Assembly (NCBI GenBank): GCA_027486795.1
Contig: JAIXOI010000048.1
Span: forward strand, 62,001-126,000
Source: Sphingobacteriales bacterium
Lineage (GTDB): Bacteria; Bacteroidota; Bacteroidia; Chitinophagales; CAIOSU01
Direction of reading: 5' to 3'
DNA: 64,000 nt
Positions 7,246-14,092 of the stretch are shown piece by piece. The notes beneath the pieces are model-generated. The model had not been told where the DNA came from. It did no database searches and worked only from the letters and a program-made list of their open reading frames with translations. The translations under genes and the position numbers were made by a program. How positions within the stretch are numbered: position 1 is the stretch's first letter; every line of letters starts with the position of its first letter.

Positions 7246-8091
7246 TTACTTTTTCTTAATGGTTACCATTCCAGAGTTTATCCAAACTTCGTCGGCATTA
7301 TAAACTGAAAATTTATATTCGCCTGCGTCGTAAAAAGTATAGGTGAAATACGGGCGGTCCCAAGTTTCTTTTATATCGTACCTTTTGGTTTCAACAAACT
7401 CGGTGTAGTCATCGCCACCGCGAGGCTTTTTATAAATATCAACCACCAACTGGGTGGTTTTTAGTGCCTTACCGTTGTCCACCTGCAAAGTAAGGTATCC
7501 ACCATCTTTAGGTATTGTAAACTCAGTAGATTCATTAGAAGGCTCATTGTCAATTACTTCTTCGCAGAAAACAATTTTAGAATCGGAATAATAATAGGTA
7601 TCTACTTTTGTACTGCCGGTGCTACGTGGGTTGGGGGTAGTAGTGGTGGTGGTAGTAGAGCCTTTCAACTTCATTATCACGGTTCCAGAGCCAATAAATA
7701 CCTCGTCGGCATTGTACACATAGAATTTATAATCACCTACTCCTGCAAAAGTATACTCAAAGTAAGGCTTGTTCCAAGTTTCTTTAATATCGTAGTTCTT
7801 GGTTTCAACAAATTCGGTGTAATCAGAACCGCCAGAAGGCTTTTTATAAATATCCACTATCATTTGGGTGGTTTTCAATGGCTTACTGCCATTGTTTACT
7901 TGAACCGTTAAGCTACCACCTGAGCTTGGTATAATAAATGACGATGCTTCATTTACAGGTTCATTGTCGACAACCTCTTCGCAAAAAACAATTCTCGCAT
8001 CGGAGTAATAATAGGTATCTACTTGCGCCAACAGTTGGCTAGCAGTGGTAAGTAGTAGCAATACCACTGTAATAGGAATGAATTTTTTCAT
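7246..8091 (-). CDS. Secreted protein with two tandem copies of one domain; function unknown
   Basis: The 281-residue protein has a signal peptide ending LLAQ. It then carries two near-identical domains of about 120 residues (roughly 23-142 and 164-281), joined by a linker with seven consecutive Thr. Each copy begins VDTYYYSD, contains FCEEV and DNEP, has a IVDIYKKP strand and ends with YKF-VYNADEV. The pattern suggests an all-beta fold. One cysteine per domain is conserved. I recognise no family. The duplication is still clear at DNA level, so it is fairly recent or kept alike. It has its own terminator. Confidence 0.8.
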   Translation of the reverse strand: MKKFIPITVVLLLLTTASQLLAQVDTYYYSDARIVFCEEVVDNEPVNEASSFIIPSSGGSLTVQVNNGSKPLKTTQMIVDIYKKPSGGSDYTEFVETKNYDIKETWNKPYFEYTFAGVGDYKFYVYNADEVFIGSGTVIMKLKGSTTTTTTTPNPRSTGSTKVDTYYYSDSKIVFCEEVIDNEPSNESTEFTIPKDGGYLTLQVDNGKALKTTQLVVDIYKKPRGGDDYTEFVETKRYDIKETWDRPYFTYTFYDAGEYKFSVYNADEVWINSGMVTIKKK

Positions 8092-9745: not shown

Positions 9746-10102
9746 TTATTGCACAACATTAAACTCCAAAATACTTACGTAACAGCCATAGCTGCCGCCA
9801 TTGTAAAACTTCATGGTGGTGCCAGCTGGCAACCACAAAGGCAAAGCGCCCGACGAACCACCAGTATTGATTGTATGAGAAATACGCAAGCCATTAAGCT
9901 CATATAAGGCCAAACTATTTGAGCAACCCGCACCTTCTATTTTCCAAACGGTTCCTGTCGGAACGGTGTACAAAGAAGATAGATAAGGAGAAGTATTACT
10001 GTTGAAAGTTAGCAATACCACTTGATTAAACTGCAAATTACCTTGGGCCTTAACGGCAGTGCCAAAGGCCAAAACAAAGATGACTAAAATGAGCTGTTTC
10101 AT
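9746..10102 (-). CDS. Small secreted protein of the collagen-cluster paralogue family (member 1)
   Basis: The 118-residue protein has a signal peptide ending AVKAQ, then the family core: NLQFNQV just after the cleavage site, VPTGTVWKIE mid-protein, LPLWLPAGT and a terminal ILEFNV strand. It is the shortest of four closely related neighbours and the last gene of the cluster. Two cysteines (CS near residue 55, YGCYV near 108) are not shared with the others. The pattern suggests a small beta-sandwich. No named domain is recognised. A six-base gap to the next gene supports co-transcription. Confidence 0.8.
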   Translation of the reverse strand: MKQLILVIFVLAFGTAVKAQGNLQFNQVVLLTFNSNTSPYLSSLYTVPTGTVWKIEGAGCSNSLALYELNGLRISHTINTGGSSGALPLWLPAGTTMKFYNGGSYGCYVSILEFNVVQ

Positions 10103-10108
10103 AGTATA

Positions 10109-10540
10109 TTAGGGTGTTATGTTAAATTCTATGCCTGTAATGCCGCCATAAACACGGTTGCCAATATTGCCACTATTTGACATTGATAAAGTAAGTGTAT
10201 ATGTACCTTCAGGTAACCACATAGGTAAATAGCCTCCCACATCGGTAGGACTGCTGGAGCTGTAAAAGTGCACCAGCTTTTTGTTAATCATTACCTGAAC
10301 TGCAGGAATATAAGAGGGGTTAGTACTTCCGGTATTCTCAAAGGTTCCATGTGCCGATTCCAACTTCCAAACCTTACCCGCAGGCACTGTAAAGCTAATG
10401 TCCGTTTTTTCGAATGAATTGATTGTGGCAACTGTGAAGCTGGATTCCAGAAAAAACACCCTATTGAATTGTAGGTTGCCCTGGGCAAACGATGACAAAG
10501 CAAACAAGACTAAGCTCAAAAAAAGTGATACCTTTTTCAT
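10109..10540 (-). CDS. Small secreted protein of the collagen-cluster paralogue family (member 2)
   Basis: The 143-residue protein has a signal peptide ending SSFAQ. It shares with its neighbours GNLQFN, SFTVPAGKVWKLES, LPMWLPEGTYTLTLS and the end GITGIEFNI. It is longer than member 1 because of an inserted mid-domain loop. It probably folds as a beta-sandwich exported across the inner membrane. There is no lipobox and no T9SS tail, so its final location (periplasm, surface or medium) is unknown. Spacing to its neighbours is 6 and 9 bases. Confidence 0.8.
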   Translation of the reverse strand: MKKVSLFLSLVLFALSSFAQGNLQFNRVFFLESSFTVATINSFEKTDISFTVPAGKVWKLESAHGTFENTGSTNPSYIPAVQVMINKKLVHFYSSSSPTDVGGYLPMWLPEGTYTLTLSMSNSGNIGNRVYGGITGIEFNITP

Positions 10541-10549
10541 AATGGAACT

Positions 10550-10969
10550 CTAAGGGATTACATTAAACTCAATAGCCGAAATACCACCGTAAAGCTCATT
10601 GACACTACCACTGGTACTCTGATTATAAATATACCTAATGGTATAAGTACCCTCGGGCAACCAAATGGGAAAACTTGCAACATTGCCCGTACTGAAAATA
10701 ATCTTTTTATTAAGCATTACGGTTCCACTAGTTGAGAAACCAGGGTTGGGTGATGTACTATTTTGGAAGAAACTTGACATGACTGACTCTATCTTCCATA
10801 CTTTACCAGCAGGTACAGTAATGCTTTGTTCTGTAAAAGCATTGGATACATTCGCAGGTAATACAATACTCTTTTCCAAGAAAATTACTTGATTGAATTG
10901 CAAGTTGCCCTGCGCCTTAGCAGCCGTTAATGCGCCAATCAAAAGTAAAAAGGTGAGTAGCTGTTTCAT
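10550..10969 (-). CDS. Small secreted protein of the collagen-cluster paralogue family (member 3)
   Basis: The 139-residue protein has a signal peptide ending AAKAQ, followed by GNLQFNQVIFLEKS, SITVPAGKVWKIES, FPIWLPEGTYTIRY and GGISAIEFNV. It is very close to members 2 and 4 in layout, differing mainly in loops. Function unknown. It lies 64 bases after member 4, the largest gap in the set, which holds no obvious promoter or terminator. Confidence 0.8.
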   Translation of the reverse strand: MKQLLTFLLLIGALTAAKAQGNLQFNQVIFLEKSIVLPANVSNAFTEQSITVPAGKVWKIESVMSSFFQNSTSPNPGFSTSGTVMLNKKIIFSTGNVASFPIWLPEGTYTIRYIYNQSTSGSVNELYGGISAIEFNVIP

Positions 10970-11033
10970 ATTTGTAGAAGATTAAGTTCAAAAGCCAGTT
11001 ACAATTAGGATTTTTAGGATAATGTTATTCTTG

Positions 11034-11459
11034 TTATGGTGCAACATTAAATTCAATAGCTGAAATACGTCCACTCGTTATGGCACCAGCTGAGGTACTT
11101 GCAGACGTTACTAATGTTACGTCGTAAGTTCCAGCAGGTAACCAAATTGGTAAAGGTGCATCCTTATATGCACCTGAACCACTTGCATAAAAGGTTAGGT
11201 TTACGCCATCTAACACTAAAGTGGAAGTTGGGCTAACATAGTTGGAGCCAGAATTTTGCGAAGACGCTACCGCCGATTCAATTTTCCAAACCTTACCCGC
11301 AGGTACCGTAATGGTATAATCGGCTTTTTGATAGCTATTGCTGTTAGGCAGCACATAGCTATATTTCAAGTAGATAACTTGGTTAAACTGCAAGTTTGCT
11401 TGCGCCTTTGCAATAAAAGCGCATAGACACAACATTGCTATAATTATAAAATGCTTCAT
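11034..11459 (-). CDS. Small secreted protein of the collagen-cluster paralogue family (member 4)
   Basis: The 141-residue protein has a signal peptide ending FIAKAQ. The family motifs are ANLQFNQVIYL, YTITVPAGKVWKIES, LPIWLPAGTYDVTLV and GRISAIEFNV. It is 12 bases downstream of the collagen-like gene, so the two are probably on one mRNA. The repeated association suggests these proteins decorate or cap the collagen-like filament, but this is inference only. Confidence 0.8.
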   Translation of the reverse strand: MKHFIIIAMLCLCAFIAKAQANLQFNQVIYLKYSYVLPNSNSYQKADYTITVPAGKVWKIESAVASSQNSGSNYVSPTSTLVLDGVNLTFYASGSGAYKDAPLPIWLPAGTYDVTLVTSASTSAGAITSGRISAIEFNVAP

Positions 11460-11471
11460 GATTGCTTTTCG

Positions 11472-13733
11472 TCAAAATCCATCAATAGTGTACAATAGGG
11501 TATTCACATCGCCATTGCCAGAGCCGCTGCCGCTGGCATTAATTTTCTGGATATAAACACGGGTGTACACCTCATCATCGCCAAAGCCCGCAGCAGTGCC
11601 AAAACCTACTGTTGCTTGCGTGGTAGTGCAACGATGCTCTACACGGAAAGTAGTAGTAGCCGCTACGGTTATAATACCACGTATTTGGCTCGGATTGTTG
11701 CTAGTGCTGGTGTTGCCAAGCAATGAAACGGCCGCGCCTGTAATGTTGTACAACCTCGATTGGTGGGCACCAACGGTACCTGCTGGGGCAGTAGCCTCAA
11801 TATAATATGTGCCGGCCTCTAGGGTAATAACCGAAGTGCCGGTATTCAGAGAGATATCAGAGCCTTGGGTTACGGCTACATAGTTGAGCACACGGTTTTG
11901 CCAAGCACCATTGGTAAAAGTACCGCCATTGGTACCAGTAGTTTGGCGATCTTCGAAAATGGCATAATCAGACAACCCAGATAGACCTTGCGTACCCTGA
12001 CTGCCCGTTGATCCCGTAGCTCCTGTTGGGCCCGTTGGGCCAGCAACACCTGCAACACCTACTGGGCCAGTAGGACCAGTTAAGCCTATTGAGCCAGTTG
12101 AGCCAGTCGAACCCGTTGCACCTGTTGGGCCGGCAACGCCAACACCTGTTGCCCCTGTAGCGCCAGTGGCACCTGTTGCACCCGTTGCACCTGTAACACC
12201 TGTTGCACCCGCGGAACCTGTCAAACCTATAGCGCCTGTGGCACCCGTTGCTCCGGTAGCTCCTGCAGCACCCGTTGAGCCTGCGGCACCTGTAGCACCA
12301 GTGGCACCCGTTGCTCCGGTAACTCCTGTGGCACCCGTTGCACCAGTGGCACCTGCAGCACCCGTTGAGCCTGCGGCACCTGTAGCACCAGTGGCACCAA
12401 CTGCGCCGGTTACACCAATACTACCTGTTGCACCCGTTGCACCAGTAGCCCCCCTAGCACCAGTTGCACCGGCAGGGCCTTGTATATTGCCTGCATTACT
12501 CCAAGTGTTGTTGGTTACATCCCATACGTATAGGTCGCCACCGATAAGGTAAGCATCTCCAGCAGCACCTGTACCTGGCAAGCTACCAGTACTCGGTAAA
12601 CTACCCAATATATTCACTCCTGTTCCAGCGGCACCAGTCGCACCCGTTGCACCTGCTGGGCCAGTAGCACCTGTTGCACCAGCAACGCCAACACCCGTTG
12701 CACCCGTGGCACCCGTAGCACCAATGGCGCCCGTATTACCTGTTGGGCCTGTTAAACCAGTAGCTCCAGTTGCACCAGTATTTCCGGTAGCACCAGCAAC
12801 ACCAGTAGCTCCTGTTGCACCTGTGGCGCCTGCAGCACCAGTGGCTCCCACTGCACCTGTAGCTCCGGTCACGCCTGCTGGGCCTTGTATATTACCTGCA
12901 TTGCCCCAAGTATTGTTGGTTACATCCCATACATAAAGATCGCCTCCAATAAGGTAAGCATCTCCAGCAGCGCCTGTACTTGGCAAGCTACCTGTGCCAG
13001 GCAAACTGCCCAAAATATTGATACCTGTACCAGGTGCGCCTGTAGCACCAGTAGCGCCGGTGGCGCCTGTTGCACCCACCAATCCAGCAGGGCCAGTTGG
13101 ACCTGTTGGTCCTGATGCCAAAATTGGGCCGAGGACGATGCTGCCGCCACCGCTCAGGGTAAGGGTATCTCCGCTTAGGGTAAGGTCCTGCAACTCATTG
13201 GTAGGGTCATTATCCAAGAGGTCGACAGCCACCCAATTATTACCATCCCAGCTTAAAACTTGGCCAGCAGTTGCGCCGGTTACGTTTAGCCCGTCAATTT
13301 GAGAAATGGAAATATTGCCAACTACCTTGCCAGCAAATAATGCGTAAGGCACCGATACAAACTGGGTAGTACCAAAATCAATAAAGGTACCCGAGCCATT
13401 GGTCATCTCAACCTTTAAAAAGTGTAGATCGCCTCCCCACTCAATATCGGCAAAGTTGGTTCTTATGCCAGCGGTACGGGTACCTTCCCCGATTTTCAAT
13501 GTAAACAAACCATAGCTATTGGTATTTACAGCATGGGTCTCTACCCACTCAATAGTACCTGTTGCAGTTGTTGATATTATGCTGATGCGCACCGTTACCG
13601 ATTGGCCTGCTAGCAGGTTACCGCTGTTGTCTCGGGCAACTGCTTGGTAGTTAATAGCCTGCGGCACCTGTGCAAGTAGCATGGCAGGTAGGCATACAGC
13701 CATCAAAAGCAATAAAATTCTTACTTGTTTCAT
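11472..13733 (-). CDS. Collagen-like surface protein with Gly-X-Y tracts and C-terminal globular head
   Basis: The 753-residue exported protein has, in order: a signal peptide ending MLLAQ; an N-terminal domain (about 23-140) beginning [13 protein letters not shown], common at the start of Bacteroidota surface proteins; a short linker; Gly-X-Y tracts at about 209-236, 286-370 and 420-588, mostly GAT triplets; two nearly identical 50-residue inserts between tracts (INILGSLP...[12 protein letters not shown]); and a C-terminal C1q/TNF-like beta head from about 590. Bacterial proteins of this type trimerise into stalks used in adhesion or matrix. There is no T9SS tail. The start is the ATG at 13733. 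Antisense frames rich in Ala-Pro-Val are shadows of the triplet repeat. Confidence 0.85.
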
Positions 13734-13765
13734 CAAAGTAGGCTTATAATATTATAATTAGTTAG

Positions 13766-14092
13766 TCATTTCAGTTTAATCACCTTCAGTGAGTACATTC
13801 CATTCGATTTTCCATCGCCCAACAACTGGGCTTCTATGCTCCATATGGGTGCTACCCAATTGTAGTTGGCTTTCAGGGTGTCTGGCCCTTCCCATTTAAC
13901 CGCCATCCCGTAAGTTCCTTCACTATAATGTAAGCTCAAAAAGCGCCACTCTTCCCCTTCTGGCACGGTTATGCTACCACCTGCCATTATAGTACGCTGC
14001 AACGTATCGCCAACCGCCTTTTGTGCTTGAACGCTATTGGCTGCAAACAACAGCGCAACCGAGCAAAACATATATAGAAAAGTACGCCTCAT
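13766..14092 (-). CDS. Small secreted protein, divergent relative of the collagen-cluster family
   Basis: Starting at MRRTFLYM, this is 108 residues with a signal peptide ending SVQAQ. It lacks NLQFNQ, but SITVPEGEEWRFLSL matches the SITVPAGKVWKIES strand of the four downstream proteins, and VAPIWSIEAQ matches their LPIWLP region. It is therefore a probable fifth, distant member. It lies 32 bases before the collagen-like gene and would be the first gene of a six-gene unit. Function unknown. No clear promoter box is seen upstream. Confidence 0.65.
   Translation of the reverse strand: MRRTFLYMFCSVALLFAANSVQAQKAVGDTLQRTIMAGGSITVPEGEEWRFLSLHYSEGTYGMAVKWEGPDTLKANYNWVAPIWSIEAQLLGDGKSNGMYSLKVIKLK

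Follow-up and report, generated by a model that had tools for sequence, protein, structure and literature searches.

Comparison with described fibre systems

The MAT fibres of Bdellovibrio, as set out in the available text of their study, combine a signal peptide, an N-terminal domain of about 130 residues, a long fibre and varied C-terminal tips (TNF-like ones among them), and are encoded in many copies per genome; the surface partner of the N-terminal domain awaits identification, according to the authors (PMC10769870). The fibres considered here share with them the signal peptide, a related N-terminal domain of that size, the long fibre with varied C-terminal tips and the many copies per genome. 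One such fibre gene lies in the 64,000-nucleotide stretch of DNA analysed here (the window: Sphingobacteriales bacterium, assembly GCA_027486795.1, contig JAIXOI010000048.1, positions 62,001 to 126,000), where it belongs to a cluster of six genes: T, encoding a divergent small exported protein; the fibre gene itself; and S1 to S4, encoding small exported proteins of one family (Table 1). Unlike the Bdellovibrio MAT fibres, this one has a collagen stalk, a C-terminal linker ending in a ten-residue peptide (the tag) and a row of S and T partner genes; the words 'collagen', 'Bacteroid' and 'operon' are absent from the main text of the MAT study. The tag marks fibres with S partners without exception among the 88 genes compared, and the cluster points to a multi-part adhesive fibre of a kind not yet described, in uncultured bacteria. 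If the tag binds S, uncultured lineages would have a further way of building an adhesive fibre from several proteins, and the partner sets would be predictable from sequence.

In plan, the closest analogue appears to be F-ENA, the endospore appendages of Firmicutes, with their collagen-like F-BclA: there too, small beta proteins are partnered with collagen-like proteins (F-Anchor, F-BclA), and docking of F-BclA has been proposed, from an AlphaFold3 prediction, to occur via a short terminal peptide that mimics a subunit hook (PMC11952670, available text). The F-ENA subunits are DUF4183 proteins, whereas S is another family (DUF4183 was not among the Pfam-A families matched by 127 S proteins at E <= 0.1); the peptide is N-terminal in F-BclA, as far as that text describes it, and C-terminal here; and F-ENA are found on spores and have one main subunit, in contrast to the Gram-negative cells and many conserved paralogues of the present case. 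The first-pass annotation, made from the letters of the window, knew of no described system with this composition. This stands in so far as no paper on the cluster was among the matches listed in the literature searches, whose coverage leaves out most subscription papers (the string LIYTTDGF gave 0 papers), but has to be qualified by the similar plan, realised with other proteins, of F-ENA and F-BclA.

Two further comparisons are more distant. The Mfa1 (type V) fimbriae of Bacteroidota likewise draw several secreted subunits, shaft and tip proteins among them, from one cluster (PMC5789003, available text); unlike them, the present cluster has a collagen-like partner, and no fimbrillin family was among the Pfam-A matches of the 127 S proteins at E <= 0.1. 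Lcl of Legionella (PMC11162425) and SclA/SclB of Streptococcus share with the fibre a Gly-X-Y stalk with a terminal binding domain, and Lcl homologues, defined there by DUF1566, are reported from Bacteroidota including Fluviicola. Their terminal domains are other than that of the present fibre, the texts available mention no S genes or tag, and NCBIfam models of the Lcl and SclA/SclB type match only the collagen part of the fibre, far under their cut-off.

A C-terminal tag accompanies the S genes

The tag, consensus NTLIYTxDGF, ends the fibre genes that stand directly before S genes in the 53 loci found via S. Once duplicates had been removed, 88 MAT-type genes with an intact C-terminal end could be compared: the tag was present in all 25 that have an S start at most 300 bases downstream and in none of the 63 others (Fisher p 1.7e-22, shared ancestry ignored). 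The expression used to score it was set on the 53-locus data and then widened twice, admitting H and F for Y; the first, stricter version recovered 24 of the 25 genes, the exception being L044 (L-, G- and C-numbers denote loci, genomes and contigs of the comparison set). MAT-like fibres were found at 131 places in 26 of the 40 Bacteroidota genomes searched, that of the window included, and 60 of these places were hand-picked, favouring same-genus genomes and including the window's own fibre. From them came 55 distinct genes whose C-terminus is complete: two standing before S, both tagged, and 53 untagged. The other ten untagged genes came from S-bearing contigs, where some of them lie in tandem with a tagged gene. 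Four untagged genes belong to the window's own genome (L114, L125, L132, L133).

The tag is encoded by 33 distinct DNA versions, with synonymous changes at the Thr, Leu, Tyr and Gly codons, indicating that selection acts on the peptide; a cause at the DNA level, which was also considered, is disfavoured by this variation. Eight of the 25 tagged genes (L050, L054, L083, L084, L087, L163 and two in L168) lack a run of five Gly-X-Y triplets, so S accompanies the tag rather than the collagen. For this reason, where the first-pass annotation had envisaged a multicomponent surface filament with small proteins capping or lining the stalk, capping of the end would fit better and lining is disfavoured. 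The TLIYT of the tag faintly resembles the NLQFN of the S N-terminus, a stretch too short to test.

A gene of locus L083 (3737-4615) has the MAT N-terminal domain fused straight to an S-like domain (E 2e-7), without linker and tag. The tag goes with S, and the S-like domain of this fusion stands where other proteins have linker and tag; read most simply, S is a module for docking and for the tip, placed C-terminally on MAT-type fibres. On balance we lean, by a modest amount, towards the view that the cluster encodes a multi-part adhesive cell-surface fibre whose C-terminal tag receives S jelly-roll subunits at the tip.

The collagen-like fibre protein

The N-terminus of the fibre matches the NCBIfam model NF053851 (Bdello_MAT_N) at E 1.8e-11 and 44.1 bits; judged by sequence, this domain is related to the MAT domain of Bdellovibrio, yet it scores under the curated cut-off of 60. 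The same model matches all 33 aligned MAT-type domains, the window's among them, at E <= 0.01 (33 of 38 candidates; five partial or overlong domains were omitted). The central part is as the first-pass annotation described it, a protein of 753 residues with Gly-X-Y tracts dominated by Gly-Ala-Thr (GAT): there are 95 triplets, 42 of them GAT, in five tracts of 7-38 triplets, and Pfam Collagen (PF01391) matches at E 6e-37. The two inserts between tracts, given as identical in the first pass, are nearly so, with 42 of 46 residues and 118 of 138 bases in agreement. Pfam Kelch matches, which span some 20 residues at the border of one insert, were taken as chance.

The head, called C1q/TNF-like in the first pass, could not be confirmed as such: the window's head matched nothing in Pfam, and neither the single sequence nor a profile matched any PDB sequence; one of 18 head sequences matched Mfa_like_2 (Pfam, E 0.008). 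Its matches in PHROGs are to tail-fibre families, and relatives occur in 25 viral contigs (L169-L193; 35-48% identity among the 14 aligned). Of these, 19 were examined (near-duplicates among the 25 omitted), and in 13 the chain stops at most four residues past the head. The viral relatives may reflect tip domains passing between phages and the fibres of cells.

The small S and T proteins

S2-S4 are 41-50% identical to S1, and the motifs NLQFNQ, VPAGKVWKIES, PxWLPAGT and IEFNV, already noticed in the first pass, are common to the four proteins with minor variants. T, regarded there as a distant relative, matches a profile iterated from the S family at E 0.002; the T class (n = 16) aligns with the S family in hhalign at a probability of 98% (E 2e-14), a partly circular comparison since the class was chosen with an S profile. 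No convincing match to the S family was found in Pfam, NCBIfam, PHROGs or PDB sequences, the best sub-threshold scores being E 0.067 in NCBIfam, E 0.23 in PHROGs and E 0.073 among PDB sequences; T scored E 0.01 at best in PHROGs. The 127 S proteins matched 17 Pfam-A families at E <= 0.1, each by one to three members, and DUF4813, with the best Pfam value (E 6e-4, three of the 127), was taken as chance. By profile comparison the S family and the head domain are unrelated.

The AlphaFold2 model of S1, computed from 127 sequences out of a non-redundant set of 147 (the T class was among those omitted), is a confident all-beta structure (predicted local distance difference test, pLDDT, 93; predicted template modelling score, pTM, 0.84) that we read as a jelly roll. 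Foldseek gave nothing against the PDB at E <= 0.001, its weak matches including carbohydrate-binding modules; the best VIA-align score was a Z of 8.2 with Arabidopsis HDT3, with many ties and at a level rated common by the tool; and a viral structure library gave nine matches at E <= 0.001 (best 4e-4), all uncharacterised or unnamed. Since these neighbours are generic, the model is read as a common jelly roll only.

As read from the sequences, the two halves of S appear in swapped order in proteins of about 320 residues (L084 4978-5955, L081 3822-4808, L029 18-977, L085 837-1781), and also in L013, whose gene seems to be that of L084. A glycine-rich part follows the swapped halves, and both of the proteins scanned, those of L084 and L081, matched Pfam Gly_rich_2.

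Paralogue rows and their age

The small genes, T counted, stand in rows of 1-19. In rows of at least three, 208 of 231 match another contig better than their own paralogues, although some of the contigs compared are near relatives, which favours such matches; S2 and S3 of the window, for example, are 92% and 96% identical to their L042 counterparts and 42-45% identical to their best own paralogue. A tree of 219 small genes (T omitted) contains 26 clades of at least three genes with one gene per contig, together holding 144 genes, and 60 of its 67 cherries join different contigs; the seven within one contig (shuffled mean 2.1) are in L070, L044 and L080. Most S paralogues are thus old and conserved between genomes. 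The idea that S expanded recently to serve as a switching repertoire was rejected for most rows on these cross-contig matches and the tree. Such long-retained paralogues suggest instead a hetero-oligomer whose subunits have set places. T occurs exactly once in each of the 24 T-bearing contigs: at the row end in 20, in mid-row in L076 and L086, and before the fibre gene in the window and in G001 (L167 10555-10881). As a separate observation, the outer genes of the window are more diverged from L042 than the inner ones (S1 64% and S4 69% identical, synonymous divergence, dS, 1.3 and 4.1; S2 and S3, dS 0.45 and 0.26), and S1 and S4 were possibly swapped between strains.

Neighbourhood of S across genomes

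S is rare: it was found in 10 of 149 genomes among relatives, the window's own included, and in one of 395 genomes drawn from the phylum, again the window's own (ten best candidates per genome scored). The relatives with S are mostly binned environmental Bacteroidota genomes, several from lakes or ponds, and apparently freshwater. The 53 loci correspond to 49 distinct contigs, 37 of which have a fibre-type gene (MAT, Gly-X-Y or tagged) at most 5 kb from S; counted separately, MAT genes were within this distance in 27, Gly-X-Y genes in 23 and tagged genes in 29. The small genes do not, therefore, lie mostly away from fibre-type genes, the case in which the first-pass association would have failed, although Gly-X-Y genes themselves account for only 23 of the 49 contigs. 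As a rough yardstick, with six MAT genes in the 3.9 Mb of the window genome, a random 12-kb stretch holds one in about 2% of cases; some relatives have up to 15 MAT genes. Among the 12 contigs without a fibre-type gene in this range, five (L046, L048, L049, L064, L067) are cut off at the first S gene or immediately ahead of it. In a second set of 14 loci around the relatives' S genes, which overlaps the first (judged by length and content, L155 is the contig of L047, L164 that of L086 and L167 that of L043), a tagged gene stands beside S in seven and is missing in seven, five of these from G102. The G102 genes are solo S genes: they are spread over several contigs, and no fibre gene was found near them (L155-L158, L160). 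S can evidently serve without a nearby tagged fibre.

Two features of the MAT-type genes themselves were also recorded. At six loci a small exported protein with a type IX secretion system (T9SS) sorting tail (PF18962) lies directly upstream of MAT-type fibre genes (Table 1); a profile of this protein matched upstream of 20 of 103 MAT genes, some matches being to the generic tail only, and the protein may be the surface anchor that the MAT N-terminal domain would need. Contigs C107 and C276 of G007 carry tandem MAT-domain open reading frames of about 320-400 residues, with six matches each, mostly about 1 kb apart.

Proposed assembly and alternative explanations

In the assembly that we infer, the collagen-like protein would form a trimeric stalk displayed on the surface, with its MAT-type N-terminal domain holding it at the cell and the tag placed at the end of a flexible linker on its head. 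Exported via ordinary signal peptides, the jelly-roll proteins of the S family, and probably T too, would bind the tags and assemble on them as a set hetero-oligomer, giving a distal, presumably adhesive tip. A more detailed version, tentative and rather doubtful as a whole, takes the tag of the MAT-type trimer as a starting strand, lets the old, non-interchangeable S proteins join in a set order via N-terminal strands and makes T the single terminator or adaptor, so that a modular hetero-oligomeric tip would form on the collagen-like stalk.

Several results weigh against tag-mediated docking of S. When linker, tag and S1 were joined and modelled with AlphaFold2, the S1 part folded as in the model of S1 alone, but the tag remained coil at low confidence, without strand pairing (pLDDT 54 and 63 for the 10-residue blocks). 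This construct, in which the stop was read as glycine, was modelled from 88 sequences as a single chain with the S1 signal peptide between tag and S1, two features that limit the test; it lends no support to docking of the tag onto a single S1. S occurs without a nearby fibre gene at five of the six G102 loci, at one locus each of G145 and G001, and in L071 and L090-L094, and some rows of small genes are divergent from the fibre gene and not behind it. Finally, the Fisher test takes no account of common descent, and the tag expression was derived from part of the data on which it was scored.

The solo S genes and the unpaired tag would suit S proteins that are free-standing secreted binders, for example lectins, merely co-expressed with a fibre whose tag serves as a signal for processing or anchoring, with no binding of S; the carbohydrate-binding modules among the weak Foldseek matches of S1 (none at E <= 0.001) point the same way. 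We consider this unlikely, because it leaves unexplained both the absence of the tag from the 63 MAT genes not directly before S and the MAT-S fusion of L083. The pairing of tag and S, together with the signal peptides, would be accounted for if S were dedicated periplasmic or outer-membrane assembly factors that bind the tag in a chaperone-like manner during fibre export and are absent from the finished fibre; related MAT fibres without S also lack the tag and would presumably take another route. So many old and divergent paralogues per cluster are, however, not expected of a chaperone, the L083 fusion puts S at the fibre end, and two swapped-half S proteins carry a Gly_rich_2 domain, so that we regard such a role as quite improbable.

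A phage or tailocin remnant, with a tail fibre and receptor-binding proteins, is suggested by the head and Gly-X-Y regions, which are like those of phage tail fibres. Only the head is widely shared with viruses: no S was found in 2.9 million viral contigs (pattern-seeded scans with two different alignments), and a scan of this kind found the MAT domain in three. The signal peptides on the proteins, recognised by inspection, and the ribosomal genes that adjoin the cluster in the window, in G001 and in G002 further make this origin extremely improbable.

Locus and flanking genes

The cluster is, as first annotated, a run of six minus-strand genes with short gaps, from 14092 to 9746; the gaps are 32, 12, 64, 9 and 6 bases in the order T, fibre, S1, S2, S3, S4, and a signal peptide is seen by inspection at the N-terminus of all six products.

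Table 1 Features of the cluster and of related loci. Positions refer to the window unless a locus is named.
Feature	Position	Strand	Basis
T gene, divergent small exported beta protein, 108 aa	13766..14092	-	first in transcription order
Collagen-like fibre gene, 753 aa, ATG 13733	11472..13733	-	open reading frame, Pfam Collagen match
Fibre: signal peptide and MAT-type N-terminal domain (residues 1-135)	13329..13733	-	NCBIfam NF053851
Fibre: Gly-X-Y region, 95 triplets in five tracts	11970..13112	-	triplet count
Fibre: first 46-residue insert between Gly-X-Y tracts	12885..13022	-	sequence comparison
Fibre: second 46-residue insert between Gly-X-Y tracts	12480..12617	-	sequence comparison
Fibre: C-terminal head domain (about residues 589-731)	11541..11969	-	common to phage tail fibres
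Fibre: Ser/Gly-rich linker, 12 residues	11505..11540	-	sequence
Fibre: C-terminal tag, 10 residues, abuts stop codon	11475..11504	-	sequence comparison
S1, small exported protein, read as jelly roll, 141 aa	11034..11459	-	open reading frame, family alignment, AlphaFold2 model
S2, small exported protein, 139 aa	10550..10969	-	open reading frame, family alignment
S3, small exported protein, 143 aa	10109..10540	-	open reading frame, family alignment
S4, small exported protein, 118 aa	9746..10102	-	open reading frame, family alignment
T9SS-tail protein, L044	2319-2816		PF18962
T9SS-tail protein, L045	3826-4299		PF18962
T9SS-tail protein, L050	2716-3195		PF18962
T9SS-tail protein, L068	4725-5195		PF18962
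T9SS-tail protein, L163	3891-4394		PF18962
T9SS-tail protein, L167	897-1412		PF18962

Downstream of the cluster lie three ribosomal protein genes, which we take to be rpsF, rpsR and rplI, and upstream of it genes for an ABM-domain protein and a SAM hydroxide adenosyltransferase. The ribosomal flank is conserved in two same-genus genomes, G001 (L043) and G002 (L042); the upstream flank of G001 is unlike that of the window, except for T. Beside the ribosomal genes, the window encodes an exported protein of 281 residues in which a TYYYSD repeat unit occurs twice (7246-8091) and for which Pfam gave nothing above cut-off; a 276-residue protein resembling it is encoded near the ribosomal genes of G001 (L043 8606-9436). 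Opposite the Gly-X-Y region, two AP-rich open reading frames on the plus strand (window 12166-12552 and 12994-13302) are probably mirror artefacts of the Gly-X-Y repeat.

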